From contig CAISYC010000008.1 of NCBI GenBank assembly GCA_903889565.1, positions 1 to 64,000 on the forward strand: a stretch of DNA of 64,000 nt, written 5' to 3'. This document shows positions 8,367 to 32,253 of the stretch, one piece after another. The DNA comes from an uncultured beta proteobacterium (GTDB taxonomy: Bacteria; Pseudomonadota; Gammaproteobacteria; Burkholderiales; SG8-41). Position 1 is the first letter of the stretch. Each line of letters opens with the position of its first letter. Made by a program: the position numbers and the translations under genes. Below the pieces are notes generated by a model that saw only the letters and a program-made list of their open reading frames with translations, was not told where the DNA came from and searched no databases.

Positions 8367-9800
8367 CTACAGAATTTTGCCCGGATTCATCAGGCCGCGC
8401 GGGTCGAGCGCCTGTTTGACCGAGCGCATCAATTCGAGTTCCAGCGGTTGCTTGCAGCGCGCAAGTTCGGCGCGCTTGGAGACGCCGATGCCGTGTTCCG
8501 CACTGATGCTGCCGCCCATGCCGGTGACGACGTCATGCACCACGCAGTTGACGTCGATGGCCGCGCGCGCCGCCGGATCGGCGAGATCGCGGCCCGGCAC
8601 GAAGGCGTTGTAATGCAGATTGCCGTCGCCGAGATGGCCGAAGCAGATTACGCGCGTGCCGGGAAAGCGCGCTTCCAGCGCGGCACCGGCCGCGCGGATA
8701 AAGTCCGGAACCTTGCTCACGGCAACCGAGATATCGTGACGGTAGATGAGCCCGGCGATGCGCGCGGCGTCCGGAATCGATTCGCGCAGCTTCCAGAACG
8801 CGGCGGCCTGCGCGCCGCTGGCGGCGATCGCGGCATCGAGCACGCCGCCGGCTTCGGCCGATTCGGTTAACGCCGCCTCGACGCGTGATTGCAATGCGGC
8901 GTCGTCGCCGGCATCGCCGAGTTCGGTCAATACATACCAGTCATGTCGATCGCCCAGCGGATCGCGCGTGGCCGGAATGTTTTTGAACACGAGGTCGAGG
9001 CAGGGCCGCGAAATCAGCTCGAAGGCGGTGACGGCGTCGCCGCAGCGCGCGCGCAGCATGGCGAGCAGCGCCACCGCTGCATCCGGACTTTCGATCGCGG
9101 CGAAGGCCACCACCTGCGAGCGCGGCCGCGGTTGCAGTTTCAGCACCGCGGTACTGATGATGCCGAGCGTGCCTTCGGCGCCGATGAACAGCTGCTTGAG
9201 GTCGTAACCGGTGTTGTCCTTGCGCAGGGAACGCAGGCCATTCCAGATGCGACCGTCGGCGAGGACCACCTCGAGTCCCAGCACCTGATCGCGCGTATTG
9301 CCGTAGCGCAGCACATTGACGCCGCCGGCATTGGTGGAAAGGTTGCCGCCGATCTGGCAGCTGCCTTCGGCGCCCAGCGATAACGGAAACAGGCGGCCGA
9401 CTGCGGTGGCGGCCTGCTGGATATTGGCGAGTATGCAGCCGGCTTCCACCGTCATCGTATTGTTCAACGCATCAACGTCGAGAATGCGGTTCATGCGCGA
9501 CAGGCCAATCACGATCGCGTGAGCGCCGGCGGCCGGGGTTGCCGCACCGCACATGCCGGTGTTGCCGCCCTGAGGGACGATGCTGATGTTGTGCGTCGCG
9601 CACAATGCGACCACACGGCTCAGTTCATCGACGTTGGCCGGGCGCACTACGGCAATTGCGTTTCCCGTGTAGATGCCGCGCCAGTCGCGGAGGAATGGCG
9701 CCATATCGTCGGCCGCGGTCAGGAGTCCCGCGCCGACGATGGTGGCGAGTTGCGCATGGATGGCGGTGAAGTCGGATTTCAACGGTGTGTGTGTGTTCAT
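8367..9800 (-). CDS. FAD-binding oxidoreductase (D-2-hydroxyacid dehydrogenase / GlcD-like)
   Basis: FAD_binding_4 motif [87 protein letters not shown] at 9800 ([11 protein letters not shown]). Confidence 0.93.
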
Positions 9801-9809: not shown

Positions 9810-9838
9810 ATTATATCGGTGCGGCGGCGGCGGCCCAA
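9810..9838 (-). promoter_or_regulatory. Putative sigma70 promoter immediately upstream of the FAD-oxidase start codon
   Basis: Minus strand TTGGGC - 17 nt - TATAAT (perfect -10). The -10 ends about 9 nt before the ATG at 9800. Confidence 0.5.
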
Positions 9839-9873
9839 AAAAACAGGCCGTCATCTTGTGAATGACGGCCTGC
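9837..9873 (-). terminator. Strong rho-independent terminator (minus strand) with no annotated upstream gene
   Basis: Minus strand CAGGCCGTCATTCACAAGATGACGGCCTG TTTTTTT: 11-bp stem, 7-nt loop, U7. Confidence 0.85.
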
Positions 9874-9969
9874 AGGGTTTGCGCGGCCGGGTAGGCTGCG
9901 CATGTTCGAATTGGCGCGGATATTTTTGGCGATTCCGCTGAACGCCGCCCGAGTGGTTCAGGCAATTGC
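9837..9969 (-). ncRNA. Candidate small RNA (or terminated leader), about 130 nt
   Basis: Promoter-like TTTACA (10005-10000) - 18 nt - TAAAAT (9981-9976) on the minus strand, followed by a short non-annotated stretch ending in the 9837-9873 terminator. Confidence 0.4.
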
Positions 9970-9975
9970 GGGCGC

Positions 9976-10005
9976 ATTTTAGCGGCGCGGCGCGTTTTCT
10001 GTAAA
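9976..10005 (-). promoter_or_regulatory. Putative sigma70 promoter driving the candidate small RNA
   Basis: TTTACA - 18 nt - TAAAAT; 5/6 match to each consensus hexamer. Confidence 0.5.
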
Positions 10006-10184
10006 GTCGGCGCGATGGGCCGCGCGGGCGGTGGCTGCTGCATCCGCTGGCCGCCGTTGGCGCGCCGGCGCAGGGTAGGTCGTGAGACATGCGCATGTTA
10101 TGATCAGAGTTCATTATTGACGCGCCGGCACGGCTTGTTCTGCGTGCACCGCCGGCGTGAATTCATCCGGAAAGCCTGTTTGCC

Positions 10185-11798
10185 GTGCCGAAGACCGCGG
10201 ACATCATTGCGCATGCGCTCTACGACGAAGGCGTCCGCCACGCCTTCGGCATTCCCGGCGGCGAAGTGCTCGAATTGCTCGAGGCTTTTCGCAAAACCGG
10301 CATCAAATTCGTCCTCACCAAGCATGAGATGGGCGCCGGCATCATGGCCGAGGCGAGTTATCAGCTGACCGGCCGGCCCGGCGTGCTGGTGGCAACACTG
10401 GGACCCGGTATCGCCAATACCGCGGTCGCGGTGGCGCAGGCCATGCTCGACCGCTCGGCTTTGATTGTGATCACTGGTGAAATCGCGGCGGCGCTGAAGC
10501 CGCTGTATACGCATCAAATCTTCGATCAGGAGTCGCTGCTGCGGCCGCTGGTCAAGTGGACGACCACGGTGGCACCGGCCCATGCGTTCGAGCAGGTGCG
10601 CAAGGGGCTCGCCATTGCGCGGGCGCCGATGCCCGGCCCGGTGCATTTCAATCTGCCGACCGATGTTGCGGCGGCCGAGCAGACCGATGCGCGCAAATTC
10701 GCGCCGGTCGCCGTGCGCACGCTGCCGAAACGCGACGACCGCGCGGCGATCGAAGCGTGGCTGAAGAAGGCGAATCGTCCGCTCGCGCTGGTAGGGCTCG
10801 GCGTGCAGGTCGATGGGGCCGAACGCGAACTGCGGCGATTTCTCGAGGCGTGGCGGATTCCGCTGGTCACCACCTACAAAGCCAAGGGCGTGGTGCCTGA
10901 GGATCACAACCTCAGCGTCGGCGCCACCGGCTTGAGTCCGGTGGTGGACAAGATACACATGGCGCAGGTGCGCGAAGCCGATCTGGTGCTGACCATCGGT
11001 TTCGATCCGGTCGAACTGCGCGCCGACTGGATCGCGCCGTGGGACGAGCGCAAGGCCACGGTCAATATCGATCTGCTGCCGAACACCCATCACGTGTTTC
11101 GCAGCGCGGTCGAGTACGCCGGCAGCATCGGCGGCTGTCTGCAGACCCTGACCCAGGCGGCGCCCAAACGCACGCCGTCGCGCTGGCTGGATGCCGATCT
11201 TGATCGCTATCGCCGCACCATCATGCATGCGATCGAGAGCGCGCCGGTAAAAGGCATGGGCCCCTACCAGGCGGCCTGTGCGCTGCGCGAGGTGTTTCCG
11301 CGCGACACCATCGCCACCATCGACACCGGCGCGCATCGCATTCTGATCAACCATGTGTGGCAGGCGTTCGAGTCGCGGCGTCTTTTGCAATCGAATGGTC
11401 TGGGCACCATGGGGTATGCGCTGCCATCGGCGATTGCGGCGAGCCTGCATTTTCCGAAGCGGCCGGTGCTGGCGATGATGGGCGAGGCCGGTCTCGACAT
11501 GGTGATCGGCGAAATGGCGCTGCTCGCGCACCACAAGCTCGCGCTGACCATCGTCGTCTTCCGCGATGACACGCTGTCGCTGATCAAGCTCAAGCAGCAG
11601 CGCATGAAGCTCACCGAAACCGGCGTCGCCACCGGCAGCCCGGATTACGTCATGATCGCCGAGGCCTACGGCGGCAACGGCTTTGTCGTCAACAACGCGG
11701 CCGAACTGAAGAAGGTCGCGCGCGTCGCGCTCAACAGCAAACGCTTTACGCTGATCGAGGCGCGCATCAACCCCGCCGAGTATCGGAGCCAGATGTAA
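10185..11798 (+). CDS. Thiamine-diphosphate-binding protein, acetolactate synthase / 2-oxoacid decarboxylase family
   Basis: GTG start. IPGGEVLELLEAFRKTGIKFVLTKHEMGAGIMAEASYQLTGRPGVLVATLGPGIANTAVAVAQA typical of the TPP_N domain. The C-terminal TPP motif is atypical (see findings). Confidence 0.85.
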   Translation: MPKTADIIAHALYDEGVRHAFGIPGGEVLELLEAFRKTGIKFVLTKHEMGAGIMAEASYQLTGRPGVLVATLGPGIANTAVAVAQAMLDRSALIVITGEIAAALKPLYTHQIFDQESLLRPLVKWTTTVAPAHAFEQVRKGLAIARAPMPGPVHFNLPTDVAAAEQTDARKFAPVAVRTLPKRDDRAAIEAWLKKANRPLALVGLGVQVDGAERELRRFLEAWRIPLVTTYKAKGVVPEDHNLSVGATGLSPVVDKIHMAQVREADLVLTIGFDPVELRADWIAPWDERKATVNIDLLPNTHHVFRSAVEYAGSIGGCLQTLTQAAPKRTPSRWLDADLDRYRRTIMHAIESAPVKGMGPYQAACALREVFPRDTIATIDTGAHRILINHVWQAFESRRLLQSNGLGTMGYALPSAIAASLHFPKRPVLAMMGEAGLDMVIGEMALLAHHKLALTIVVFRDDTLSLIKLKQQRMKLTETGVATGSPDYVMIAEAYGGNGFVVNNAAELKKVARVALNSKRFTLIEARINPAEYRSQM

Positions 11799-11888
11799 TC
11801 GCGCGCGGCGCAATGCCGGCGGTCGGTGGTAAGATGCGGCTTCCCCGCACCCATAAAAACAATCTGCTCCAACTCCGGGAGACCGCCG

Positions 11889-12365
11889 TTGCTGACCGAT
11901 AAAATCATCCTTGCGCTGACGCTGTTGCTGGCAGCGGTATATTTCTACGCAACCGCGCAGATCCCGTCGCTGGAAATCGGCGATCCGCTGGGGCCCAAGG
12001 CCTTTCCGATTCTGCTCGGCGTGATTCTGGTGCTGGCCTGCGTGTTGCTGGCGGTGGAAATCATCCGTGCCAAGCCGCAGCCGGCGGTGGAAAAAGATGC
12101 CGCCAGCGCCGACAGCGCGGAGAACGCGAAACACCTGTGGCAGATCGGCGGCGTGGTGGTGTGGACGGCGTTTTACTTCTGGATGTTCGACCGCGCGGGC
12201 TATATCGCGACGACGACGGTTTATCTGCTGGCGCTGACGATTGTATTTAATCGCGGCAAGTGGCTGGCGAATATCCTGACGTCGGTCTTTTTCACCATCG
12301 GCAGCTATGTGCTGTTCGCCAAGATTCTCGGCGTCGTGCTGCCGACGGGTCTTGTAAGCTTCTAG
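11889..12365 (+). CDS. Tripartite tricarboxylate transporter, small membrane subunit TctB family
   Basis: About 158 aa with four hydrophobic segments: LLTDKIILALTLLLAAVYFYATAQIPSLEIGDPLGPKAFPILLGVILVLACVLL. Directly precedes tctA. TTG start inferred; the ORF track begins at 11826. Confidence 0.85.
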   Translation: MLTDKIILALTLLLAAVYFYATAQIPSLEIGDPLGPKAFPILLGVILVLACVLLAVEIIRAKPQPAVEKDAASADSAENAKHLWQIGGVVVWTAFYFWMFDRAGYIATTTVYLLALTIVFNRGKWLANILTSVFFTIGSYVLFAKILGVVLPTGLVSF

Positions 12366-12375
12366 GAAAAACGCG

Positions 12376-13887
12376 ATGGATACCCTCGGCCACATCATGA
12401 ACGGCTTCAACGTCGCGTTGATGCCGGTCAACCTCTGGTACACCTTTCTCGGCTGCCTGATGGGCACGGTCATCGGCGTGCTGCCGGGAATCGGACCGGC
12501 CGCCGGCATCGGTCTTTTGATACCGGTCACCTACGGCATGAACCCGACTTCGGCGCTGATCATGATGGCCGGCATTTATTACGGCGCGATGTACGGCGGC
12601 TCGACCACCTCGATTCTGATCAACACGCCCGGCGAGGCCTCTTCAGTGATGACCGCGCTCGACGGCTATCAGATGGCGAAGAACGGCCGCGCCGGCGCGG
12701 CGCTCGCAGTGTCCGCGATCGGCTCGTTTCTCGCCGGGACCTTCGGCATCGTCGCGCTGACCATCCTGGCGGTGCCGCTGGCGGCCTATGCGCTCAAATT
12801 CGGCCCGGCCGAATATTGCTGCCTGATGCTTTTTTCGCTTGCCGCGGTGTCATCGCTGACCGGCAAGTCGGTCGCCAAAGGCATTATTTCCACCGTGCTC
12901 GGATTGATGATCTCAACCATCGGCATCGATCTGCAAAGCGGGCAGCCGCGCTACACCATGGGCGTGCCGGAACTGCAGGACGGCGTCGGCTTCCTGGTCG
13001 TCGTCGTCGGATTGTTCGCCATGGGCGAGGTCTTCAGCAACCTCGAGGATCACATCAAGGGCAAGGCGGAGATCATCAAGTTAAGCGGCCGGCTGTGGCT
13101 GACGCGCGAGGAATGGAGCCGCTCGATCATGCCGATTGTCCGCGGCGGCGTGATCGGGTTTTTCAAAGGCGTGCTGCCGGGTGCGGGTGCGACCATCGCG
13201 ACCATGTTGTCGTACACGGTCGAGAAGCGCATTTCAAAAACGCCGGAGAAATTCGGCAGCGGCATGATCGAAGGCGTGGCCGGACCCGAGGCAGCCAACA
13301 ATGCCGCCACCTGCGGTTCGATGGTGCCGCTCCTGACGCTGGGCGTGCCGGGTTCCGGCTCGACCGCGGTGCTGATGGGTGCGTTCATCATGTACGGCAT
13401 CCAGCCGGGGCCGCTGTTGTTCGAGAAGCGCCCCGATCTGGTGTGGGGACTGGTCGACAGCATGTACATCGGCAACATCATGCTGCTGATCCTGAATCTG
13501 CCGCTGATCGGCATTTTCGTGCGCATACTCTATATTCCGACCGGAATATTGTTGTCGCTGATTCTTGCAATCTCCGCGATCGGCGTCTATTCGATCAACG
13601 GCAATGTGCTCGAATTGCAGATGGCGCTGATGTTCGGTGTGCTGGGCTATCTGTTCCGCAAGTGCGACATCCCGCTGGCGCCGATGGTGCTGGCACTGGT
13701 GCTGGGCGGCATCATGGAACAGTCGTTCCGTCAGGCGATGACCATATCGGGAGCGGATCCCACGGTATTCGTCAAGAGCGGTATCTGCATCACGCTCCTG
13801 GTGTTCACGGTCATCATGGTATCACTGCCGGTGATTCTGCCGCGTCTGCGCGAGTGGACCAGCGGTCCCGAAGACGTTGATTCTTGA
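12376..13887 (+). CDS. Tripartite tricarboxylate transporter, large permease TctA family
   Basis: GCLMGTVIGVLPGIGPAAGIGLLIPVTYGMNPTSALIMMAGIYYGAMYGGSTTSILINTPGEASSVMTALDGYQMAKNGRAGAAL is diagnostic of TctA. Confidence 0.97.
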   Translation: MDTLGHIMNGFNVALMPVNLWYTFLGCLMGTVIGVLPGIGPAAGIGLLIPVTYGMNPTSALIMMAGIYYGAMYGGSTTSILINTPGEASSVMTALDGYQMAKNGRAGAALAVSAIGSFLAGTFGIVALTILAVPLAAYALKFGPAEYCCLMLFSLAAVSSLTGKSVAKGIISTVLGLMISTIGIDLQSGQPRYTMGVPELQDGVGFLVVVVGLFAMGEVFSNLEDHIKGKAEIIKLSGRLWLTREEWSRSIMPIVRGGVIGFFKGVLPGAGATIATMLSYTVEKRISKTPEKFGSGMIEGVAGPEAANNAATCGSMVPLLTLGVPGSGSTAVLMGAFIMYGIQPGPLLFEKRPDLVWGLVDSMYIGNIMLLILNLPLIGIFVRILYIPTGILLSLILAISAIGVYSINGNVLELQMALMFGVLGYLFRKCDIPLAPMVLALVLGGIMEQSFRQAMTISGADPTVFVKSGICITLLVFTVIMVSLPVILPRLREWTSGPEDVDS

Positions 13888-13920
13888 ACCCGCGGCAGGT
13901 TTGATAGCGGAAGGGCAGGC

Positions 13921-14949
13921 ATGCATCGCATCAGTCTGATCCCGGGCGACGGCATCGGCCCGGAAGTTTCAGCGGCCGCGCAGGCCGTGGTCGCCGCCGC
14001 CGGCGCCGCGGTGGAATGGGAGGTCGTCGAAGCCGGCATGGCGGCGGGCGAGCGCGGCGGCCATCCGCTGCCGCCGCCGGTGTTCGAATCGATTGCGCGC
14101 AACAAGATCGTGGTCAAGGGACCGACGCAGACGCCGTTTGGTGACGCCTATCCGGTGCAGGTCGGCGAGCGCATTTACCCGAGTGTGGCGATCGCGCTGC
14201 GCAAGGAACTCAAACTGTTCGTCAATGTGCGTCCGGCGCGCAACTGTCCCGGCATCAAGTCGCGCTTCGATCACGTTGATCTGGTGATTTTCCGCGAGAA
14301 CAGCGAGGATCTGTATATCGGACAGGAACGCATGATCGATGCCGACACCGCCGAGGCGGTGAAGATCATCACGCGCGGCGCCAGCGAACGCGTCACGCGC
14401 TTTGCCTTCGACTACATGCAGCGCACCGGCCGGCGGAAGCTGACCGCGGTGCACAAGTCGAATGTGCTGAAGCTCACTGACGGGCTTTTTTTGAAATCGG
14501 CGCAGGCGGTGGCGAAGGAATACCCGCAGTTCGGATTCGATGCGCGGGTGGTCGATGCGCTGTGCATGGAACTGGTGGTGAAGCCGGAATCCTTCGATTG
14601 CCTGGTGTTGCCGAACCTCTATGGCGACATCGTGTCCGATCTTGCCGCCGGACTCGTCGGCGGACTCGGCGTCGCGCCGGGCGCCAATATCGGCAGCGAC
14701 TGCGCGATGTTCGAAGCCGTGCACGGCAGCGCGCCGGACATTGCCGGCAGGGATCTGGCCAATCCGATGGCGATGATCCTGTCGGTGGTCATGATGTTGC
14801 GTTATATCGGCGAGAGTGCGGCAGCCGACCGTATCGATGCCGCACTGGCGGCGGTATTGACTGAAGGTCGCGCAGTCACCCGCGACCTCGGCGGCGTGGC
14901 GGGCACGCGCGGCATGACGCAGGCGATCGTCGAACAAATCAAAGCCTGA
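13921..14949 (+). CDS. Isocitrate/isopropylmalate dehydrogenase family protein
   Basis: ISLIPGDGIGPEV; FRENSEDLYIGQE; LPNLYGDIVSDLAAGLVGGLGVAPGANIGSDCAMFEAVHGSAPDIAGRDLANP. Confidence 0.92.
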   Translation: MHRISLIPGDGIGPEVSAAAQAVVAAAGAAVEWEVVEAGMAAGERGGHPLPPPVFESIARNKIVVKGPTQTPFGDAYPVQVGERIYPSVAIALRKELKLFVNVRPARNCPGIKSRFDHVDLVIFRENSEDLYIGQERMIDADTAEAVKIITRGASERVTRFAFDYMQRTGRRKLTAVHKSNVLKLTDGLFLKSAQAVAKEYPQFGFDARVVDALCMELVVKPESFDCLVLPNLYGDIVSDLAAGLVGGLGVAPGANIGSDCAMFEAVHGSAPDIAGRDLANPMAMILSVVMMLRYIGESAAADRIDAALAAVLTEGRAVTRDLGGVAGTRGMTQAIVEQIKA

Positions 14950-14967
14950 AAGGCAGGGAGAACGCAG

Positions 14968-15963
14968 ATGAAATTGCTACGCTACAGCCGCAAGGGACAG
15001 AAAGCTGCACAGGCGCGGCTCGGGGTGCTGGTCGGTGACAACATGGTGGCCGATCTGCGCGCCGGTTATTCGCGCTACCTGATCGAGGAAATCGGCAATC
15101 CGAAGGGCCGCGAACTGGCGGGAATTTTCCTGCCGCCCTACGTGGCGCAGTTTCTGCACGTCGGCGCGCCGGCATGGGAAGCGCTGTCCGAGGCCTACGG
15201 CTGGCTGTCCGATCTTGTCAAAGCCGAGCCGGCAGCAACGGGTCTTACCGGCGAAGACCTGTTCATGCCCTTGTCTGAAGCGCGGCTGTATGCGCCGGTG
15301 CGCGGCAGCAAGATCATCGCGGTTGGCCGCAATTACCCGGGTTACAACAAAAATCCGGGCCGTCAAGGCGGCAAGGTGCCGGCCGGCTTCGTCAAGGTGC
15401 CGTCATGTATCGTCGGCCCCGGCCGCGATATTCTCAAGCCGGTGATGTCGAAACGGCTCGATTGCGAAACCGAACTGGCGATCGTCATCGGCAAAAAATG
15501 CAAGCACGTGCCGGAAGAGCGCGCCTATGACGTGATCGCCGGCTACACCATCCTCAACGATGTCACTGCGCGCGATATTGCCGACATCGAACGCGATGCT
15601 GGCCATCCGCTGCTGGGCAAGACCTTCGACACCTTCGCGCCGATGGGGCCGTGGCTGGTGACCAAGGTCGAGATCACCGATCCGATGAATCTACGCATTC
15701 AGACGCGCGTCAACGGCGAACTGCGGCAGGACGGCAACACCAGCGACATGATTCATGCGATTCCGAAGCTGGTGTCCTATATGTCGCAAATGACGCTGAT
15801 GCCGGGCGACATCATATCGACCGGTTCGCCGGGCGGCGGCGGACTCGCCAATCCCGACTGGTATCTGAACGCTGGCGATGTCATCGAGTGCGAAATCGAG
15901 AAAATCGGCACGCTGGTCAATGCGGTGGTCAATGAACCGCGGCTCGGCGCCATCCACAAATAA
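14968..15963 (+). CDS. Fumarylacetoacetate hydrolase (FAH) family protein
   Basis: IIAVGRNYPGYNKN; DCETELAIVIGKKCKHVPEERAYDVIAGYTILNDVTARDI; FDTFAPMGPWLVTKVEI; MTLMPGDIISTGSPGG. Confidence 0.93.
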   Translation: MKLLRYSRKGQKAAQARLGVLVGDNMVADLRAGYSRYLIEEIGNPKGRELAGIFLPPYVAQFLHVGAPAWEALSEAYGWLSDLVKAEPAATGLTGEDLFMPLSEARLYAPVRGSKIIAVGRNYPGYNKNPGRQGGKVPAGFVKVPSCIVGPGRDILKPVMSKRLDCETELAIVIGKKCKHVPEERAYDVIAGYTILNDVTARDIADIERDAGHPLLGKTFDTFAPMGPWLVTKVEITDPMNLRIQTRVNGELRQDGNTSDMIHAIPKLVSYMSQMTLMPGDIISTGSPGGGGLANPDWYLNAGDVIECEIEKIGTLVNAVVNEPRLGAIHK

Positions 15964-15976
15964 CGCGGAGTGCGGC

Positions 15977-17383
15977 ATGGCGCTGACGATGTTTGAAAAA
16001 ATCTGGGCGCGCCATGTGGTGACCATCGACGAAGGCGAGGCGTTACTCTACGTCGATCGCGCGCTTATCCACGAGGGTTCGTCGCACGCTTTCGATTCGC
16101 TGCGCGAACAGCAGCGCGCGGTGTTCCGGCCGCGGCAGATCTTCGCCTTTAACGATCATTACGTGCCGACGACCGGTCGCGACAAGGGGGCGGCGGGCAT
16201 CGCCAACCCGGATATCCGCGACATGGTGCTGAGGCTCGGCGCCAATGCGGCGGCACACGACATCACGCTCTTCGGCATCGATCATCCGCAGCAGGGCATT
16301 CTGCATATCGTGCCGCCCGAGCAGGGCATCACGCAGCCCGGATTGCTGATGGTCGGCGCCGATTCGCATTCCTCGACGCACGGCGCCTTCGGTTGCCTGT
16401 CGTTCGGTGTTGGCGCCTCGGAGATGTTTCATGTGATGGCCACACAGACCATCTGGCAGCGCAAGCCGAAGACCCTGCGCATCGTGCTCGAGGGCGCGCC
16501 CGGTTTCGGTGTTTCGGCCAAAGACCTGATACTTGCCATCATCGCCAGGATCGGCGTTGGCGGCGGTGTCGGCCATGTGATCGAATATGCGGGTTCCACC
16601 GTGCGCGGGTTGAGCATGGAGGCGCGCATGACCATCTGCAACATGACCATCGAAGCGGGCGGCCGCGCCGGCATGATGGCACCGGATGAAACGACCTTTA
16701 CCTATATTGCAGACCGGCCCTATGCGCCCAAAGGCGCGGTGCGCGATGACGCACTGGCGTTTTGGAAAATGCTGCCGTCGGATGACGGCGCCGTGTTCGA
16801 CAAGACGGTGACGCTGGATGCGGCCGCGGTGGCGCCGATGGTGACCTGGGGCACCAATCCGGAACAGGCGCTGCCGATCACAGAAACCGTGCCTGATCCG
16901 CGCGATGCGCGCGACGAAGTACAACGCGCCGAATACCAATCAGCAATCGATTACATGGCGCTGGCGCCCGGAATGGCGCTGTCCGGCATCAAAATCGACC
17001 GCGTGTTCATCGGCTCATGCACCAATGCGCGCATCGAAGACCTGCGCGCGGCTGCCGCGGTGGCGAAACTCGGCAGGGCGCAGGTGCCGGCGTGGGTGGT
17101 GCCCGGTTCGCGCAGCATTCAGCATCAGGCCGAACAGGAAGGCCTCGACAAGATTTTCACCGCCGCCGGCTTTGAGTGGCGAGAACCCGGTTGTTCACTG
17201 TGCACGGCGTTGAACGGCGATCAACTGCAGCCAGGCGAACGCTGCGCGTCGACCTCGAATCGCAACTTCAAGGGACGCCAGGGCACCGGCGGCCGCACTC
17301 ATCTGATGAGTCCGGCGATGGCGGCGGCGGCGGCCCTGCGCGGACGCTTTACCGATGTGCGCGAACTGGCGGCAAAGGGGTAA
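15977..17383 (+). CDS. LeuC-like hydro-lyase/isomerase large subunit (aconitase superfamily)
   Basis: VGADSHSSTHGAFGCLSFGVGASEM; FIGSCTNARIEDLRAAAAV; EPGCSLCTALNGDQLQPGERCASTSNRNFKGRQGTGGRTHLMSPAMAAAAAL. Start corrected from 15878. Confidence 0.93.
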   Translation: MALTMFEKIWARHVVTIDEGEALLYVDRALIHEGSSHAFDSLREQQRAVFRPRQIFAFNDHYVPTTGRDKGAAGIANPDIRDMVLRLGANAAAHDITLFGIDHPQQGILHIVPPEQGITQPGLLMVGADSHSSTHGAFGCLSFGVGASEMFHVMATQTIWQRKPKTLRIVLEGAPGFGVSAKDLILAIIARIGVGGGVGHVIEYAGSTVRGLSMEARMTICNMTIEAGGRAGMMAPDETTFTYIADRPYAPKGAVRDDALAFWKMLPSDDGAVFDKTVTLDAAAVAPMVTWGTNPEQALPITETVPDPRDARDEVQRAEYQSAIDYMALAPGMALSGIKIDRVFIGSCTNARIEDLRAAAAVAKLGRAQVPAWVVPGSRSIQHQAEQEGLDKIFTAAGFEWREPGCSLCTALNGDQLQPGERCASTSNRNFKGRQGTGGRTHLMSPAMAAAAALRGRFTDVRELAAKG

Positions 17384-17386
17384 TCG

Positions 17387-17992
17387 ATGAAACCGTTCAC
17401 CACGCTGACCGCGATCGCCGCGCCCTTCGATCAGCCCAATATCGATACCAACCAGCTGTGCCCGACGCGTTTCAACAAGGTGCCTCGCGGTCCCAGGTAC
17501 GCCGCAGTGCTGTTTCACGATCTGCGTTTTAACGCTGACGGCAGCGAGAAGGATTTCGTGCTCAATCGCGAGCCGTATCGCAGTGCCGGGATCATTGTTG
17601 CCGACCGCAATTTCGGTTGCGGATCATCGCGTGAAAGCGCCGTCTACGCCTTGTATGAATTCGGCATCAGTTGTGTGATCGCGCCAAGTTTCGGCGACAT
17701 TTTTGCCAACAACTGCGGCAAAAACGGCCTGCTGCCGGTGATGCTGCCGACTGCGGAGGCAGACGCGATCCGGCGTCAGTTGAATGCCAACGTTGGTGCC
17801 ACGCTGACGGTTGATCTCGCCGCGCAGACCGTCACCGACGTCGAAGGTGAGGTGCATCGCTTCGACATTCATCCGGTGCGCAGGAAGTGCCTGCTCGAAG
17901 GGCTGGATGACGTCGATCGGACGCGCCAGTATCTGCCGGCAATCGAAGCCTTTGAGACTTCATATAGACGTGAACGTAGCTGGCTTTATTAG
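17387..17992 (+). CDS. LeuD-like hydro-lyase/isomerase small subunit
   Basis: 201 aa: NIDTNQLCPTRF...DFVLNREPYRSAGIIVADRNFGCGSSRESAVYALYEFGISCVIAPSFGDIFANNCGKNGLLPVML. Starts 3 nt after the leuC-like stop. Confidence 0.93.
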   Translation: MKPFTTLTAIAAPFDQPNIDTNQLCPTRFNKVPRGPRYAAVLFHDLRFNADGSEKDFVLNREPYRSAGIIVADRNFGCGSSRESAVYALYEFGISCVIAPSFGDIFANNCGKNGLLPVMLPTAEADAIRRQLNANVGATLTVDLAAQTVTDVEGEVHRFDIHPVRRKCLLEGLDDVDRTRQYLPAIEAFETSYRRERSWLY

Positions 17993-18000
17993 AGCCGGTT

Positions 18001-18135
18001 CGTCCTTCCGGTGAAGGCGGGTATCCCCTTCCCCCGCTTGCGGGGAAGGCAGGATGGGGGCAATCGCCCTATGAATTTTTGATGACGCGTATTTGATGCC
18101 CAATTCCCGGGCCCCCGCCTTCGCGGGAGCGACGA
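18001..18135. repeat. REP-like palindromic intergenic module
   Basis: CCGGTGAAGGCGGGTATCC (18008-18026), TTCCCCCGCTTGCGGGGAA hairpin (about 18029-18048) and an oppositely oriented CCCGGGCCCCCGCCTTCGCGGGAGCGACGA (18106-18135). Confidence 0.55.
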
Positions 18136-18144
18136 CGTCGTTAT

Positions 18145-19119
18145 TTATTCCAGCTTGATGCCGGTTTCGCGCACGAGCTTGTTCCACTTGGTGAGATCGT
18201 CGCGCAAAAACCGCGTGAATTCCTCTGGGGAACTCTCCAGCGTCTCGGCGCCGAAGCGCGCGAAGCTGTCGCGCGTCGTCTTCAGCCGCAGCACCTTGAG
18301 CAGGGCGGCATGCACTTTTGCGGTGATTTCGGGCGGCGTCGCCGCCGGCAGCACGATGCCGGTCACGGTGCTGGCATCGAAACCCGGCACGCCCGATTCG
18401 TTGACCGTCGGAATCTCCGGCGCGTAGGGCGAACGCTTGAGTGTTGTGACCGCGATCGCCCGCAGTTTACCCGACTGCAGATAACCAAACGACGAAGACA
18501 GCTGATCGAAAAACACATCGACCTGGCCGCCCATCATGTCGATCAGCGCGGCGCCGCTGCCTTTGTACGGCACGTGGATCAGCCGCGTGTCCGACGCCTT
18601 CTGGAACAACGCGCCGGCGAGGTGGTTGCTGCTGCCGCTGCCGGCGGAGGCCATGGTGATGCGGTCCGGGCGCGCTTTCGCCAGCGCGATGAATTCGCGC
18701 ACCGTCTTCGCCGGCACCGACGGGTGCGCTTCCAGTACCATGGGCACCACGGTGGTCATCGAGGTGGCGGCGAAATCCTTCAGCGGGTCGTAACCGAGTT
18801 TCGGATACAACGCCGGTGCATTGGTCAGCGTGCCGCTGGAACCGAGCAGCAGCGTGTAGCCGTCGGCGGCTGCTTTCGCCGCGACCTCGGTGCCGATGGT
18901 GCCGCCGGCGCCGCCGCGGTTCTCGACCACAATCTGCGCGCCGAGGTATTCGCCGAGCGCAGGTGCCAGTGTGCGCGCCGTGATGTCGATATTGCCGCCG
19001 GGCACGTAGGGCACGATGATGCGAACGGCGCGATCCGGGTAGGCGGCTGCGGCGCTCGCCGCCAGCGCGAACAGCCAAAGTGCATTGAAGGTCCTGCGCA
19101 ACATGTCTGCCTCCGGCAA
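18145..19119 (-). CDS. Tripartite tricarboxylate transporter substrate-binding protein (TctC/Bug family)
   Basis: YPDRAVRIIVPYVPGGNIDITARTLAPALGEYLGAQIVVENRGGAGGTIGTEVAAKAAADGYTLLLGSSGTL; signal peptide at the N-terminus. Confidence 0.97.
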   Translation of the reverse strand: MPEADMLRRTFNALWLFALAASAAAAYPDRAVRIIVPYVPGGNIDITARTLAPALGEYLGAQIVVENRGGAGGTIGTEVAAKAAADGYTLLLGSSGTLTNAPALYPKLGYDPLKDFAATSMTTVVPMVLEAHPSVPAKTVREFIALAKARPDRITMASAGSGSSNHLAGALFQKASDTRLIHVPYKGSGAALIDMMGGQVDVFFDQLSSSFGYLQSGKLRAIAVTTLKRSPYAPEIPTVNESGVPGFDASTVTGIVLPAATPPEITAKVHAALLKVLRLKTTRDSFARFGAETLESSPEEFTRFLRDDLTKWNKLVRETGIKLE

Positions 19120-19202
19120 TCGGGTCGGCGCATGTTAGAACAGGCAGTGAGGCGGGCGCAAATTCAGTAAAATCGGCGGCGACCATCAACACGGGCCTGA
19201 TC

Positions 19203-20081
19203 ATGATTCCGTCCGAACGACTCAAGTATTCCGCGATCATCGATCGCGCACCGCTCAAACTGCCGCGCGGCATCCGCATGATCGTGTGGCCGATCGTCAA
19301 TGTGGAGGTGTGGGACATCGGCCGCGCGATGCCGCGCCAGGCGCTGCCGCCGCCGACCGGTGTGACGCAACTGCCGGATGTGCCGCACTGGGCGTGGCAC
19401 GAATACGGTAATCGCGTCGGCTTCTGGCGCATGAAGGCGGTGCTCGACCGCCTGAAGATCACGCCGTCGCTGTCGGTCAATGCGCGGGTCTGCCAGGATT
19501 ACCCGCGGATTGCCAAGGCCTGCCTCGATGCCGGCTGGGAATTCATGGGCCACTCCTACGACCAGCGGCCGATTCACCTTGAGCCCAATCAGCGCGCGAC
19601 CATCCGCAAGGCGGTCAAGGTGATCAAGGCCTACACCGGCAAGCAGCCGGTGGGCTGGCTGGGGCCGGGATTTACGCAGACGCTGGACACCCCGGAACAT
19701 CTCGCCGAGGCCGGCATCCGCTACATCTGCGACTGGCCGCTCGACGACGAGCCGGTCGAAATCAAGACCAGAAAGGGCCCGCTGCTGGCGCTGCCCTACA
19801 GCATCGAGCTCAACGATATTTCGATCATGATCGTGCGCAGCCAGCCGGCCCAGGAGTTTTACACGCGCTGCATGGACTATTTCGACCGTTTATACGCGGA
19901 ATCGAAGCACAGCGCGAAAATCATGTCGATCGCGGTCCATCCGTATATCTCGGGCGTGCCGTACCGCATCAAATATTTCGAACAGGTGTTCGAAACCCTG
20001 CGCAAAAAGCCCGGCGTCGCCTTCTGGACGGGCGAACAGATCATGGACTGGTATCTCGGCAGCCGCGGCAAGCGGGGCTGA
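19203..20081 (+). CDS. Polysaccharide deacetylase family protein (PuuE-like NodB fold)
   Basis: RLKITPSLSVNARVCQDYPRIAKACLDAGWEFMGHSYDQRPIHLEPNQRATIRKAVKVIKAYTGKQPVGWLGPGFTQTLDTPEHLAEAGIRYICDWPLDDEP. Confidence 0.85.
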   Translation: MIPSERLKYSAIIDRAPLKLPRGIRMIVWPIVNVEVWDIGRAMPRQALPPPTGVTQLPDVPHWAWHEYGNRVGFWRMKAVLDRLKITPSLSVNARVCQDYPRIAKACLDAGWEFMGHSYDQRPIHLEPNQRATIRKAVKVIKAYTGKQPVGWLGPGFTQTLDTPEHLAEAGIRYICDWPLDDEPVEIKTRKGPLLALPYSIELNDISIMIVRSQPAQEFYTRCMDYFDRLYAESKHSAKIMSIAVHPYISGVPYRIKYFEQVFETLRKKPGVAFWTGEQIMDWYLGSRGKRG

Positions 20082-20172
20082 ACGGGCGGCTTTCACCGCC
20101 TGCGGCGGTTTGGGGTAAAATCCCGCCACCCCGCGCAACCGGCTTTACCGCCGGGATTCGACGCCGCTTGTT

Positions 20173-20218
20173 GGCGCCGGATTCCGGCGCGAGACACGCA
20201 TTATCCAGACGGCGCCGG
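20173..20218 (+). promoter_or_regulatory. Putative bistable 5' leader structure upstream of the HMGL-like gene
   Basis: GGCGCCGG (20173-20180), CCGGCGC (20184-20190) and a second GGCGCCGG (20211-20218). The middle element can pair with either copy. Confidence 0.4.
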
Positions 20219-20270
20219 CAGGACCTCAGGTTCGCTCAGTTACGTTATTTTTTATCAAGGAGTTTTTCCC

Positions 20271-21506
20271 ATGGCAAATCAACCCTGGAAGACCAACGAC
20301 TGGTTCGTCAGCGAGTGGAACTACGCTGACGAAGTCACCAAGGATTTCAAATTCGCGAAGAACGTGAAGATTCACGACATCACGCTGCGCGACGGCGAAC
20401 AGCAGACCGGCATCATCATGACGCTGGACGACAAGATCCGCATCGCCGAGGGCCTCGCCGAAGCCGGCGTGCACCGCATCGAAGCCGGTATGCCGATCGT
20501 CTCGCCGTCGGATGCCGAGGCGATCAAGGCCATCGTCAAGCGCAACCTCGGACCGCAGATTTTCGCGTTCTCGCGCTGCATGAAAGAAGACGTGCAACGC
20601 GCCATCGACACCGGCGTCAACGGCATCGTGATGGAAATCCCGTCGAGTCTGCATATGGTGGACATCGCCTACCGCTGGCCGATGGAAAAAGCCATCGAGA
20701 CCTCGATCGAGGCGACCAAGTTCGCGCGCGACAACGGGCTCGAAGTGGTGTTTTTCCCGATCGATTTCTCGCGCGCCGAAATGCACTGGGTGCTCGACCT
20801 GATCGACCGCGTCGCCACCGAAGGTCACATGGACGCGCTGGCGCTGGTTGACACCTTCGGCGTGGTTTCGCCGCATGCGATGCAGTATTTTGTGCGCGCG
20901 GTGAAGAAGCGTATCAACAAGCGCCTCGAAGCGCACTTCCACCAGGATTTCGGCATGGGGGTCGCGAACACCATCATGGCGCTGGCCGAAGGCGTTGAAG
21001 TGGCGCATACCACGGTGCTGGGCGTCGGCGAACGCGCCGGCAACACGCCGATGGAAGAAACACTGATGGCCTTGCGTACCATGTACAACATCGATACCGG
21101 CATCGACCTCACCAAGCTGACCTCGCTGGCCCGCCTGGTCGAGCAGATCACCGGCGTGCTGGTGCCGACCAACAAACCGGTCGTCGGCAGCCAGTTGTAT
21201 CAAATCGAGTCGGGCATCATCGCCAGCTGGTTCAAGAACTGCGGCGACAAGTTCGCGACCGAACTGTTCCCGGTGCGCTGGAGCGCCGTCGGTCAGCCGG
21301 CCGCCACCGTCGTCATGGGCAAGGGTAGCGGCATCGACTCGGTCAAGATGTGGCTCGAAGAGTCGGGCATTGAGGCGAGCGACGAAGAAGCGCTGGCCAT
21401 CACCCACGAAGTCAAGAAGTACTCGCTCGGCACCAAGAAGCTGCTGACCGAAGGCGAATTCCGCACCATCGCCAAGAAGGTTGTCGGCCAGCGCGCCAAC
21501 GCCTAA
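20271..21506 (+). CDS. HMGL-like / 2-isopropylmalate-homocitrate synthase family protein without a LeuA regulatory domain
   Basis: HDITLRDGEQQTGIIMTLDDKIRIAEGLAEAGVHRIEAGMP; HFHQDFGMGVANTIMALAEGVEVAHTTVLGVGERAGNTPMEETLMALRTMY; 411 aa. Confidence 0.9.
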   Translation: MANQPWKTNDWFVSEWNYADEVTKDFKFAKNVKIHDITLRDGEQQTGIIMTLDDKIRIAEGLAEAGVHRIEAGMPIVSPSDAEAIKAIVKRNLGPQIFAFSRCMKEDVQRAIDTGVNGIVMEIPSSLHMVDIAYRWPMEKAIETSIEATKFARDNGLEVVFFPIDFSRAEMHWVLDLIDRVATEGHMDALALVDTFGVVSPHAMQYFVRAVKKRINKRLEAHFHQDFGMGVANTIMALAEGVEVAHTTVLGVGERAGNTPMEETLMALRTMYNIDTGIDLTKLTSLARLVEQITGVLVPTNKPVVGSQLYQIESGIIASWFKNCGDKFATELFPVRWSAVGQPAATVVMGKGSGIDSVKMWLEESGIEASDEEALAITHEVKKYSLGTKKLLTEGEFRTIAKKVVGQRANA

Positions 21507-21521
21507 GCACGGCAACGTAAT

Positions 21522-21557
21522 AAAAAAGCCCGCGGATAAACCCGCGGGCTTTTTTTC
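21522..21557. terminator. Rho-independent terminator, possibly bidirectional
   Basis: AAAAAAGCCCGCGGATAAACCCGCGGGCTTTTTTT downstream of the HMGL-like gene and convergent to the SMP-30 gene. Confidence 0.9.
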
Positions 21558-21579
21558 GTGCGGCGTTTGCCGCGTCTGC

Positions 21580-22500: not shown

Positions 22501-22604
22501 GTCGATACTCCTGCAGAAGATGCGGATGAATTGAGCGTGCGATTCTAACAGGGGCAGAGGCAGCGGTTGCGGCAACCCCGCCGCTTGTGCATGATCAGCA
22601 GTCC

Positions 22605-23876: not shown

Positions 23877-23984
23877 CGCGGGCCGGCGCCCGCGGCTTGC
23901 TATAATGCGCGCCATTCCCGCCGCCCGCCGACGTCTGGCCGGCGGTTTTTGTTTGCCATGTATGACAGCGGAAAAACGCATCCA

Positions 23985-25604: not shown

Positions 25605-25623
25605 CAATCACGGCATCGCGGCG

Positions 25624-26712: not shown

Positions 26713-26747
26713 GTTGCCAATAGTTGTAAACAATTCACATGAACGGC

Positions 26748-26781: not shown

Positions 26782-26802
26782 GCTGCAAACTGCAGTCTAC
26801 TT

Positions 26803-29490
26803 TTAGGCGGCCATCAACTCGCGAAGAACATACGGCAGGATGCCGCCGTGTTTCAGATACTCGACCTCGATCGGTGAATCCACGCGGAGGGTGACGGTAA
26901 CGTTCTGCGACGTGCCGTCCTTCCGGTGGATGACCAGCGTCACGTCCTGCAGCGGCTTGACGTTGCCGCCGGCGACGCCGATGAGATCAAAGGTTTCGCT
27001 GCCGTCGATCTTCAGCGACTGGATGGTGTCATCACCCTTGAACTGGCAGGGCAACACGCCCATGCCGACGAGGTTGGAGCGGTGAATGCGCTCGTAACCG
27101 CGTGCGACGACGACCTTGATGCCGAGCATTTGCGTGCCCTTGGCTGCCCAGTCGCGGGAGGAGCCAGTGCCGTAGGCTTCTCCGCCGAAGACGAACAGCG
27201 GCACGCCTTCCTTCTGGTATTGCATGGAGGCTTCGTAAATTGTTGTCTTGGCACCGTCGGGCTGGTGCAGCGTGACGCCGCCTTCGCTGCCCGGAATCAT
27301 CAGGTTCTTGATGCGCGGGTTGGCGAAGGCGCCGCGCACCATGACTTCATGATTGGTGCGGCGTGAGCCGAAGCTCGACAGGTCGGTGCTGCCGGCGGCG
27401 ACCAGCCAGTCACCGGCCAGCGTGCCCTTGCGGATCGGGGCGACGGGGCTGATGTGGTCGGTGGTCAGCTTGTTGCCGAAGAGACCCAGCGCGCGGCCGC
27501 CTTTGACATCGGTGATTTTCGGCAGCGCCTTCTTGAAGCCTTCGAACAGCGGCGGCTCGAGCAGATAGGTCGATTTCGAATCCCAGTCGAACAGCGCGCC
27601 CTTGGCTTCCGGGATCGCGTCCCACAGGTCCTTGGCGCCGTCCAGATTGCCGTATTCGCGCTTGAAGTTCGCCGGGTTGGTGGCGAATTTCATCACGGCA
27701 TCGACTTCCGCCGGCGTCGGCCAGAGGTCTTTCAGGAACACCGGTTTGCCGTCCTTGTCGTTGCCGAGCGGATCGGTTTCGATGTTCTTCAGGACGGTGC
27801 CGGCCAACGCAAACGCGACCACCAGCGGCGGGCTCATCAGGAAGTTGGCTTTCAGGCTCTGATGCACGCGCGCTTCGAAGTTGCGGTTGCCGGAGAGCAC
27901 GGCGGCGGAAATGACGTCGTTCTTGACGATGGACTCTTCAAGATCCTTGTCGAGCGGGCCGGCCAGACCCATGCAGGTGGTGCAGCCGTAGGCGACGACA
28001 TAAAAACCGAGTTGCTCGAGATAGGGCAGCAGGCCCGCATCCTTGAGATAGGCGGTGACGACTTTCGAGCCCGGCGCCAGCGACGTCTTCACGCGCGGAT
28101 GCGGCTTCATGCCGCGCTCGACTGCCTTTTTCGCAAGCAACCCGGCGGCCAGCAGCACCCATGGGTTGGACGTATTCGTGCAAGAGGTGATGGCGGCAAT
28201 GCCGATATCGCCATGGCCGACGTCGCCGATCTTTGCATTGGCAACGGGGAAGCGTTTCGACAGATCAGCGGTCGGTTTGTTGTAGCCGCTTTCAGCCACC
28301 GGCTTGGAGAACAGTTCGGTGAAGCGGGCGCCGATGCCCTCAAGGTTGATGCGCTCTTCGGGTTGTTTCGGACCGGATACGCTTGGACGCACCGTCGACA
28401 GATCGAGTTCGACGACCTGCGAGTAATCGATTTCGCCTTTTTTCGGAATGCCGTACATGCCCTGCGCCTTGAGGTAGGACTCGATGGCATCGACATGCTG
28501 TTCGCGGCCGGACATGCGGTAGTACTCGAGGGTCTTGTCGTCAATTGCGAAGAAGCCGCAGGTCGCGCCGTAATCGGGCGCCATGTTGGAGACGGTGGCG
28601 CGGTCGGTCGGCGTCAGCGAAGCGGCGCCTTCGCCGAAGTACTCGACGAACTTGTTGACCACGTTCGTTTTGCGCAGCAGTTCGGTGACGGTCAGCACGA
28701 GGTCGGTGGCGGTGACGCCGGGGTTCAGCTTGCCGCTCATGTGCACGCCGACGACGTCCGGCTCGAGGAAGTAGTAGGGCTGACCGAGCATGCCGGCTTC
28801 GGCCTCAATGCCGCCCACGCCCCAGGCCAGCACGCCGATCGCATTGACCATGGTGGTGTGCGAGTCGGTGCCGACGGTGGAGTCGGGATAATAAATGCCG
28901 TCTTTTTCCCACACGCCGCGCGACAGATATTCGAGATTGACCTGGTGGCAGATGCCGTTGCCCGGCGGCACCACGCGGATGCCGGAGAAGGCGGCCTTCG
29001 CCCACTTCAGGAAGGTGTAACGCTCGCCATTGCGCTCGAATTCGATTTCCATGTTCTTGCGAAGTGCGCCCGCCGAGTCGCTGACGTCAACGACGACGGA
29101 GTGGTCAACCACGAGGTCGACTGGCACCAGCGGCTCGATTTTGGTCGGATCGTAGTTCTGGCGCTTGGCTTCGGCGCGCATGGCGGCAAAGTCGTTCAGC
29201 GCGGGGAAGCCGGCCATGTCCTGCAGCATGATGCGGGCGAGCACGAACGGCAGTTCCTGCGTGCGCGCGCCGTTCGGTTTCCAGGCGGCCAGCGCCTTGA
29301 CCGCATCTTCGGTGACCCGCTTGCCGTCGCAATTGCGCAGGACGGACTCAAGCACTACGCGCAGGCTGACCGGCAGGCGCGAGACCTTGCCGAGGCCGGC
29401 TTTTTCCAGCGCGGCCAGCGAATAATATTTGCCGGTCTTGCCCGACTTGAGCTTAAATTCCTGCAGCGAGTTGAACAGATTGTGCGGCAT
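26803..29490 (-). CDS. acnA: Aconitate hydratase, AcnA family (copy 1 of tandem pair)
   Basis: 895 aa; [62 protein letters not shown]. Confidence 0.93.
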
Positions 29491-29553
29491 TGCGGTTCTC
29501 CGTTTGGATTAACAGTGTTAACAATATTAGCGGTGTTGTGCGGATGGCAGGGA

Positions 29554-32253
29554 TCAGGCGGCTTCGGCCAGAATCTGGCGCAGCACGTAGGGCAGAATGC
29601 CGCCGTGTTTGAGGTAATCGACTTCGATGACGGTGTCGATGCGCAGCGTCAGCGGTACTTTCTGCGTGCTGCCGTCGGCGCGTGTGACGGTCATCGTCAC
29701 ATCCTGCAGCGGCTTGACATTGCCGCCTTCAAGGCCTTCGATGGTGAAGGTTTCGCTGCCATCGATACCGAGCGTCTTGACGTCGGTGCCGGGCTTGAAC
29801 TGCAACGGCACCACGCCCATGCCGATCAAGTTGGCGCGGTGGATGCGCTCGAAGCTTTTGACAATGACGGCCTTGACGCCGAGCAACTGCACGCCTTTGG
29901 CCGCCCAGTCGCGCGACGAGCCCATGCCGTAATCGTCGCCGCCGAAAATAACGCAGGGCGTGCCGGCTTTTTGGTACAGCTCGGAGGCCTCGAATATCGT
30001 CATCTGTGCGCCGTCGGGCATGTGCTTGGTGATCGGGCCCTCGGTCCCCGGTGCGACCGCATTTTTCAGGCGCACGTTGGCGAAAGTGCCACGCACCATC
30101 AATTCGTGGTTGCAGCGGCGAACGCCGAAGTGGCCCCACTCGGACGGCGGAACGCCATAGGGCTCGAGCCATTTGCCGGCCGGCGTGCCCGGCTTGATTT
30201 TGGTTGACGGGCTGATGTGGTCGGTGGTGATCGAATCGCCGAGAATCGCCAGCGCGCGCGCGCCCTTGATGTCGCTGACCTTGCCGAGCTGGCGGGTCAC
30301 GCCTTCGAAAAACGGCGGCTCCTTGATGAAGGTCGATTTGGGATCCCACTCATAGACGGCGCCCTTGATGGTCGGGATCGCATCCCACAGTTTCTTGTTG
30401 CCCGAGAGGTCGCCGTATTCCTTGCGGAAGTGATCGGCGTTCGACGCAAACTTCATGAGTGAGGCCACTTCGGCGTCGCTCGGCCAAACGTCCTTCAGAT
30501 AAACGGGCTTGCCGTCGCTGCCGGTACCCAGCGGATCCTTGGTCAGATCGGTGCGCACGGTGCCGGCGATGCCGTAGGCCACCACCAGCGCCGGGCTGGC
30601 GAGGTAATTTGCGCGCAGATTGGCATGCACGCGCGCTTCGAAGTTGCGGTTGCCGGAGAGCACGGCGCAGGTGACGAGGTCTTTCGACACCACAGCCTCT
30701 TCGATTTTCGCGTCGAGCGGACCGGCGGCGCCCATACAGGTGGTGCAGCCGTAGGCAACCACACCGTAGCCGAGTTTTTCGAGATAGGGCAGCAGCCCGG
30801 CGTCGCGCAGGTAATCGGTGACGACCTTGGAGCCCGGTGCCAGCGAAGTCTTGACGCGTTTGTTGACGGCGAGGCCTTTCTCAACCGCGCGCTTGGCGAG
30901 CAGGCCGGCAGCGATCAGCAGCGCGGGGTTGGACGTATTGGTGCACGACGTAATCGACGAAATCAGCACGTCGCCGTGACCGACATCGAATTCAGCATGA
31001 CCGCTGGATTCGCGACGGTTTAGATCAGCGGCCGCGCGCGCATAACCGTTCTTGTCGGTTGGCGCCGAAAACAACGCGTCGAAACCACGACCCAGATCCT
31101 GCAAATTCACGCGATCCTGCGGGCGCTTCGGACCCGACAGGCTGGGCACGATGCTGCCGAGATCGAGCTCAACCACCTGCGAGTAATCGATGTCGCCGGG
31201 TTTCGGCATGCCGAACAGGCCCTGCGCCTTGTAATAAGCTTCGATCGCCTCGACCTGTGCCGGCTCTCGACCGGTGGTGCGGAAGTATTCAACCGTTTTC
31301 GCATCGACCGGAAAATAGCCCATGGTCGCGCCGTATTCCGGCGCCATGTTGGCGACCGTGCAACGATCAGCGGCAGTCAATGCTGCGGCGCCTTCGCCAT
31401 AGAACTCGACGAACTTGCCGACGACCTTGGTTTTGCGCATGAGTTCGGTGACGGTGAGTGCGAGGTCGGTGGCGGTGACGCCTTCGCGCAGCTTGCCGGT
31501 GACGTGGCAGCCGACGACGTCAGGCGTGAGGAAGGCATTCGGCTGGCCGAGCATGCCGGCCTCGGCTTCAATGCCGCCGACACCCCAGGCAACGACGCCG
31601 ATGCCGTTGACCATCGTCGTGTGCGAGTCGGTGCCGAACACGGTGTCCGGGAACCAGACGCCGTCTTTTTCCCACACGCCGCGCGACAGGTATTCCATGT
31701 TGATCTGGTGGATGATGCCGTTGCCCGGCGGCACCACGCGGACGGTCTCGAATGCGCCCTGCGCCCATTTGACGAAGCGATAACGCTCGGCGTTGCGCTT
31801 GAATTCGATTTCCTGATTGCGTTGCACGGCGTCCGGCGTGTTGTAGACGTCGATTTCGACCGAGTGATCGACCACCACATCGACCGGCACCAGCGGCTCG
31901 ATCTTGCTGGCGGCCAAGCCCTGGCGCTCGGCGGCGGCACGCATCGCCGAGAGGTCGTTCAGTGCGCCGAAGCCGATCAGGTCCTGCAGCACGATGCGCA
32001 CGACGATGAATGGAATCTCGGCGGTGCGCTTGCCGTTGGGCTGCCACGCGGCGAGGTTGCGCACGTGCTCTTCGGTGACGCGCTTGCCGTCGCAGAAACG
32101 CACCAGCGATTCGAGCACGATGCGAATGCTGACCGGCAGGCGCGAAATTTTGCCGAGGCCGGCTTTTTCCAGCGCCGCCAGTGAATAGTATTTGCCGGTC
32201 TTGCCGGCAGACGGTTTGAATTCGGCGAGCGAGTCAAAAAGGTTATGTGGCAC
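29554..32253 (-). CDS. acnA: Aconitate hydratase, AcnA family (copy 2 of tandem pair)
   Basis: 899 aa; [62 protein letters not shown]. Clearly paralogous to the adjacent copy (both begin MPHNLF...[19 protein letters not shown]). Confidence 0.93.
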   Translation of the reverse strand: MPHNLFDSLAEFKPSAGKTGKYYSLAALEKAGLGKISRLPVSIRIVLESLVRFCDGKRVTEEHVRNLAAWQPNGKRTAEIPFIVVRIVLQDLIGFGALNDLSAMRAAAERQGLAASKIEPLVPVDVVVDHSVEIDVYNTPDAVQRNQEIEFKRNAERYRFVKWAQGAFETVRVVPPGNGIIHQINMEYLSRGVWEKDGVWFPDTVFGTDSHTTMVNGIGVVAWGVGGIEAEAGMLGQPNAFLTPDVVGCHVTGKLREGVTATDLALTVTELMRKTKVVGKFVEFYGEGAAALTAADRCTVANMAPEYGATMGYFPVDAKTVEYFRTTGREPAQVEAIEAYYKAQGLFGMPKPGDIDYSQVVELDLGSIVPSLSGPKRPQDRVNLQDLGRGFDALFSAPTDKNGYARAAADLNRRESSGHAEFDVGHGDVLISSITSCTNTSNPALLIAAGLLAKRAVEKGLAVNKRVKTSLAPGSKVVTDYLRDAGLLPYLEKLGYGVVAYGCTTCMGAAGPLDAKIEEAVVSKDLVTCAVLSGNRNFEARVHANLRANYLASPALVVAYGIAGTVRTDLTKDPLGTGSDGKPVYLKDVWPSDAEVASLMKFASNADHFRKEYGDLSGNKKLWDAIPTIKGAVYEWDPKSTFIKEPPFFEGVTRQLGKVSDIKGARALAILGDSITTDHISPSTKIKPGTPAGKWLEPYGVPPSEWGHFGVRRCNHELMVRGTFANVRLKNAVAPGTEGPITKHMPDGAQMTIFEASELYQKAGTPCVIFGGDDYGMGSSRDWAAKGVQLLGVKAVIVKSFERIHRANLIGMGVVPLQFKPGTDVKTLGIDGSETFTIEGLEGGNVKPLQDVTMTVTRADGSTQKVPLTLRIDTVIEVDYLKHGGILPYVLRQILAEAA

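Follow-up and report, generated by a model that had tools for sequence, protein, structure and literature searches.

A promoter-terminator pair between two betaproteobacterial genes is very probably the scar of a deleted acnA gene

Stem-loops in an aconitase 3'UTR have been described in E. coli. According to reports cited in PMC10380284, the E. coli enzyme binds such structures within the 3'UTR of its own gene; those of acnB are reported to be bound by the apo-enzyme and lie beside a U-rich stretch. The SELEX of that paper did not itself recover the acnB 3'UTR. Small RNAs can also derive from a structured 3'UTR that ends in an intrinsic terminator. As sources of small RNAs, PMC8557413, citing an earlier review, names de novo emergence, duplication and horizontal transfer. 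A literature search on acnA 3'UTR small RNAs and on orphan terminators after gene loss returned nothing specific.

The locus described here lies in a 64,000-nt stretch of DNA from an uncultured betaproteobacterium, which was analysed as a whole and is called the window. It shares with E. coli acnB the aconitase 3'UTR stem-loops beside a U-rich stretch, although the aconitase is of a different type and the sequence is unrelated. It shares with 3'UTR-derived small RNAs a structured 3'UTR ending in a U-run, but here the host gene is gone; both likenesses are drawn from sequence. At curated thresholds, Rfam gives no small RNA or riboswitch family in the promoter-terminator region. The best permissive matches, suhB/mmgR (RF00519) and AsxR (RF02703), show weak local likeness in a GC stem with U-run or a short hairpin and reach 17.9 and 18.9 bits where 41 and 63 are required; the window is a member of neither. 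The acnA promoter and 3'UTR terminator of related betaproteobacteria sit at the same locus and on the same strand as the pair in the window and have the same neighbours; the promoter block is homologous, and so is the 3'UTR with its two hairpins. The difference is that the coding sequence is missing in the window. We consider it very probable that the promoter-terminator pair is the scar of a deleted acnA gene, with the promoter fused to the terminator. The pair appears to share ancestry with acnA and not with a conserved small-RNA gene. The features are as follows.

8367..9800, minus strand: FAD-linked oxidase of GlcD type, downstream neighbour (TIGR00387, E 8.5e-84, below the curated cut-off)
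9810..9815, minus strand: -10 (TATAAT) of the FAD oxidase's own promoter (GATATAAT kept in relatives)
9837..9873, minus strand: probable intrinsic terminator of the lost acnA, 13-bp stem plus T7 (terminator scan, RNA model R1)
9881..9901, minus strand: hairpin 1 of the acnA 3'UTR, GCGCAGCC-UACCC-GGCCGCGC (consensus structure)
9894..9912, minus strand: left edge of the recognisable acnA 3'UTR, AATTCG...GCGCAGCC (local alignment to the G007 acnA 3'UTR)
9913..9975, minus strand: leftover stretch between promoter and acnA 3'UTR, holding the CTGAAC/GTTCAG repeat (no detected relative)
9976..10006, minus strand: probable relic acnA promoter, C-TTTACA-18-TAAAAT (31-nt block in five genomes of the genus)
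10185..11798, plus strand: TPP-dependent enzyme, acetolactate-synthase-like (NCBIfam matches below cut-off)
about 26806..32253, minus strand: two tandem full-length acnA paralogs (Pfam aconitase domains for 26806-29490; tree)

The terminator reads GCAGGCCGTCATTCACAAGATGACGGCCTG-TTTTTTT on the minus strand (9873..9837). A GC-rich hairpin with U7 had been proposed here and is present; its 11-bp stem was slightly short, as the fold gives 13 pairs. For the complete 139-nt strand, the predicted folding energy is -57.7 kcal/mol (z = -4.7 relative to shuffled sequence), a value driven by the terminator, which is strong. Blastn in 60 relatives, which uses no model, finds little beyond the terminator and the roughly 25 nt preceding it; the body gives a single weak match. 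The window 3'UTR is 82% identical to those of genomes G035 and G031. Each terminator match lies at the end of a gene with homologs at window positions 26806-32253, which Pfam identifies as aconitase, acnA. The segment 9894..9912 aligns to G007 just past its duplicated acnA tail. We built a covariance model, R1, from an alignment of eleven 3'UTRs, the window among them. In this alignment, four of the eight pairs of hairpin 1 show two-sided compensatory changes, and five of the 13 pairs of the terminator stem show compensatory changes, including a G-C to U-A change in the window itself. Searched against 74 genomes of the family, R1 matches 17 sites at E ≤ 2.4e-6, one of them in the window. The 16 others all lie directly behind acnA (in 15 other genomes), and six of these were not used in model building. 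The window matches at 9835-9910 with E 7.6e-19 and no acnA adjoins, none being present between 9912 and 10185. Because no acnA lies directly before it, unlike the 16 others, we call the window terminator a relic; it appears to be acnA's own terminator without its gene. The preliminary description had argued that it must end some other minus-strand transcript, and in relatives it does end one, acnA. In a sample of 300 genomes of the order, the other R1 matches score far lower and lie mostly elsewhere, as expected for generic terminators. The exception is G046 (E 2.7e-7), where the match is behind acnA and adjoins msrB. The terminator loop (9852-9864, minus strand), CACAAG, hardly varies among genera, whereas the stem covaries; this is unusual for a plain terminator.

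The promoter has a -35-like TTTACA at 10005-10000, an 18-nt spacer and a -10-like TAAAAT at 9981-9976, matching the consensus at 10 of 12 positions. It stands on the minus strand at 10005..9976, just as first described. Two sites of this quality are seen in the 64-kb window, compared with 1.3 expected in Markov sequence, and the consensus match alone puts the promoter no higher than chance. It is convincing solely because the same block precedes acnA in relatives. Where matched, in G008, G013 and G003, the acnA promoter is this block, CTTTACAGGAAATG...TAAAAT. Upstream of the locus acnA we find CTTTACAGGAAATGCGCCAAGCGGCTAAAAT in G008 and CTTTACAGGAAATGTGGCGGGCGGTTAAAAT in G003, and the window counterpart is CTTTACAGAAAACGCGCCGCGCCGCTAAAAT. 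We searched with a pattern built from the G008, G003 and window blocks, allowing two mismatches and using the reversed pattern as control. The pattern was drawn to take in the window's own letters; the G013 promoter is an independent match. Exactly one match occurs in each of five genomes of the genus (G000, which is the window genome, G003, G008, G009 and G013), and the reversed control gives zero. The CTTTACAGRAAAYG...TAAAAT block between the divergent TPP or tct gene and acnA matches with zero mismatches in the window, G008, G013 and G003. It is directly upstream of acnA in the last three, and in G009 it lies in a TPP-FAD gap without acnA. In all five genomes carrying it, the block is confined to the TPP/acnA/FAD locus. 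The acnA promoters of G007 and of other genera are unlike the window block, which counts against the scar reading. The window block nevertheless appears to be acnA's own promoter without its gene. The earlier view that promoter and terminator are real and form a pair holds, as they are the two ends of acnA in relatives. The promoter pattern and R1 were both partly built from the window, and we put the stress on the six independent 3'UTRs, the G013 promoter and the model-free blastn.

In relatives, a full acnA with the terminator in its 3'UTR lies between a divergent TPP enzyme gene and the FAD-oxidase gene. The order in G035 is TPP enzyme (divergent), acnA, terminator, FAD oxidase and msrB. 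The core order from TPP enzyme to FAD oxidase is also found in G060, G007 and G080, and G021 has tct genes instead of the TPP gene. The TPP gene is divergent to acnA in G007, G008, G013, G035, G060, G080 and G032, and the FAD oxidase follows the acnA terminator in G035, G031, G060, G081, G084 and others. In the tree, the locus acnA genes form one clade with support 1.0, and this clade has no member from the window genome, G001, G005, G006 or G012. The two tandem acnA genes of the window, about 64% identical to each other, fall in other clades. The second has its own, different terminator at about 26780-26747 (CCCCGCTCCGGCGGGG plus T-run). A tandem pair is also found in G005 and G007, and G007 has the locus copy as well. 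As the locus clade holds no window member and G007 holds both kinds, the window genome appears to have lost the locus copy and kept the paralogs. Insertion of a 17-kb block (10185-26806) between a remaining acnA and the terminator was considered and rejected, because the tandem genes fall in other clades and have their own terminator, and because of the pair plus locus copy in G007. The origin of terminator and promoter, the ancestral gene order and the absence of the acnA copy are thus established by comparison, at the level of sequence, with relatives that are mostly draft assemblies.

Some loci with acnA show further rearrangement. In G007, G013 and G008 (loci L160, L161 and L146), the last acnA codons are repeated after the first stop and before the terminator, as if the gene end had been duplicated or the gene replaced. 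An apparent gene for a transporter substrate-binding protein ends directly before the FAD oxidase in G007, G013, G004, G002 and G008 (L116, L119, L113, L115 and L118). This places it, in G007 and G013, between the terminator of acnA and the FAD oxidase. In G014 (L114) and G008 (L118), only its tail end is seen.

Genomes without the locus acnA show different degrees of decay. The sisters G012 and G005 have a TPP-FAD gap of about 200 nt with an eroded terminator and without the promoter stretch. G012 gives an R1 match at the orthologous place with E 0.0096, and G005 keeps GGCCGTTA...GACCGCATTTTTGGG of the terminator. The gap in G009 retains the promoter and lacks the terminator. The gap in G014 has neither, and the end of a transporter-type gene is there instead. 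Because TPP-FAD adjacency without acnA recurs in the separate assemblies G005, G012, G009 and G014, the window gap is unlikely to be an assembly error. The losses in G009 and G014 are likely separate events, since G007, G008 and G013, which are closer by FAD-oxidase identity, keep acnA. Those in G000, G005 and G012 may be one event or several. The terminator is intact in the window but has decayed in similarly diverged sisters; continued selection is therefore conceivable, which counts against a pure relic. The intact stem, with the G-C to U-A change in the window, is compatible both with a loss not long ago and with a terminator that still serves as an insulator. The genomes range from promoter plus terminator, through a promoter by itself, to a decayed terminator without promoter, and form a small natural series of decay in which one can ask whether such leftovers ever get put to use.

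The stretch between promoter and 3'UTR (9913-9975, about 63 nt) has no convincing blastn match in the 60 relatives and is absent from the sisters G005 and G012. It matches neither acnA leader nor acnA coding DNA; the deletion junction, which is within it, therefore cannot be placed to the base. In G032 alone, a regulator gene of HxlR type weakly resembles 9913-9951 (E 3e-4); the likeness was set aside as probable chance. No protein-coding gene is recognised from the terminator to 9975, in agreement with the original view that promoter and terminator enclose none. A CTGAAC/GTTCAG stem had also been pointed out. The repeat is there (9956-9961 and 9938-9943), but not as a structural stem: the minimum-energy fold pairs GCCUGA with UCGGGC instead, and a 6-bp inverted repeat of this kind occurs in 13% of shuffled 70-mers. 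The repeat is at chance level.

We propose that in the ancestor an acnA gene of about 2.7 kb stood on the minus strand between the divergent TPP-enzyme gene and the FAD-oxidase gene. It had a promoter of its own, and its 3'UTR formed two hairpins, the last an intrinsic terminator. In the window genome its body would have been lost from somewhere in or after the leader to about the stop codon, leaving promoter and terminator about 100 nt apart and bounding a transcript of about 130 nt. A short untranslated RNA may still be made from the old promoter to the old terminator. Such an RNA would consist of leftover leader-side sequence and the acnA 3'UTR, would stop just before the FAD-oxidase promoter and would probably have no dedicated regulatory role. 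The terminator may still shield this promoter. Loss of the gene was presumably tolerable because two tandem acnA paralogs remain. The unit is most likely a relic, at best still insulating the next gene.

The 130-nt transcript that had been suggested is thus plausible, with promoter and terminator at this spacing. The independent conserved small-RNA gene also suggested does not hold up, as the body is unconserved and the conserved parts are the acnA promoter and 3'UTR. A homology search of the interval, as had been recommended, finds these two parts in relatives and not the body. A real small RNA gene, in which the old acnA promoter drives transcription of the unit and the hairpins of the 3'UTR have a function in trans, is improbable. 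It could be newly recruited after the deletion, or a 3'UTR-derived RNA already functional in acnA. Intact promoter and terminator agree with it, and so do the pairing kept in hairpin 1 and terminator by compensatory changes across genera, the nearly invariant CACAAG loop and a terminator that is perfect in the window and decayed in G005 and G012. However, termination alone makes terminator stems covary, 9913-9975 is conserved nowhere among the relatives searched, the sisters lost the promoter or most of the stem, G009 retains the promoter only and no Rfam family reaches threshold. With a 63-nt body without relatives and a unit not maintained in sisters, nothing supports a trans role of the leftover RNA. 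There is a slim chance of a small RNA in the making, in which the deletion fused the promoter to a structured 3'UTR and selection maintains the RNA here, perhaps because it regulates the remaining aconitases or serves them as a decoy, while it decayed in the sisters. A decoy role toward aconitase is imaginable by analogy with E. coli. If the RNA were shown to act, promoter-terminator fusion through a deletion would count as a simple kind of de novo emergence. What remains after a gene is lost can thus look just like a small-RNA gene, both to someone reading the sequence and to automatic small-RNA prediction, and gene order in relatives settles whether it is one.

The pair could instead belong to an attenuated 5' leader of the FAD oxidase, with transcription from about 9969 and the terminator deciding on continuation. 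We find this highly improbable. Promoter, terminator and FAD oxidase are on the same strand, and the terminator is about 37 nt before the start codon, but this terminator ends acnA in relatives, the predicted fold shows no antiterminator in competition with the 13-bp stem and Rfam gives no riboswitch match. The GATATAAT after the terminator is conserved in G001, G005, G006 and G012, and also in G035; with its own conserved -10 there, the FAD oxidase should need no attenuated leader. The attenuated leader of the preliminary description is not supported, and a leader or attenuator role appears unlikely. A possible -35 of the FAD oxidase, TTGGGC at 9833-9838, overlaps the end of the T-run. The T-run end (9831-9841, minus strand) may thus double as a -35 (TTGGGC-17-TATAAT); this could account for the survival of the T-run beyond that of the stem in G005 and G012. 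A chance promoter-like site beside an unrelated terminator agrees with the near-expected number of 10/12 matches and is hardly credible, as five genomes each hold a single copy of the 31-nt block, in every case at this locus, and the window terminator is homologous to that of acnA.

Within the 64-kb window, the only curated RNA families found are a bacterial small SRP RNA (56038-56136, plus strand) and a tRNA gene (53763-53851, minus strand). A catabolic block on the plus strand (13921-17992) contains isocitrate/isopropylmalate-dehydrogenase-like and fumarylacetoacetate-hydrolase-like genes and a split aconitase-family enzyme (large subunit 15878-17383, small subunit 17387-17992). Beside it, at 11826-13887, is an apparent tripartite tricarboxylate (Tct-type) transporter pair.
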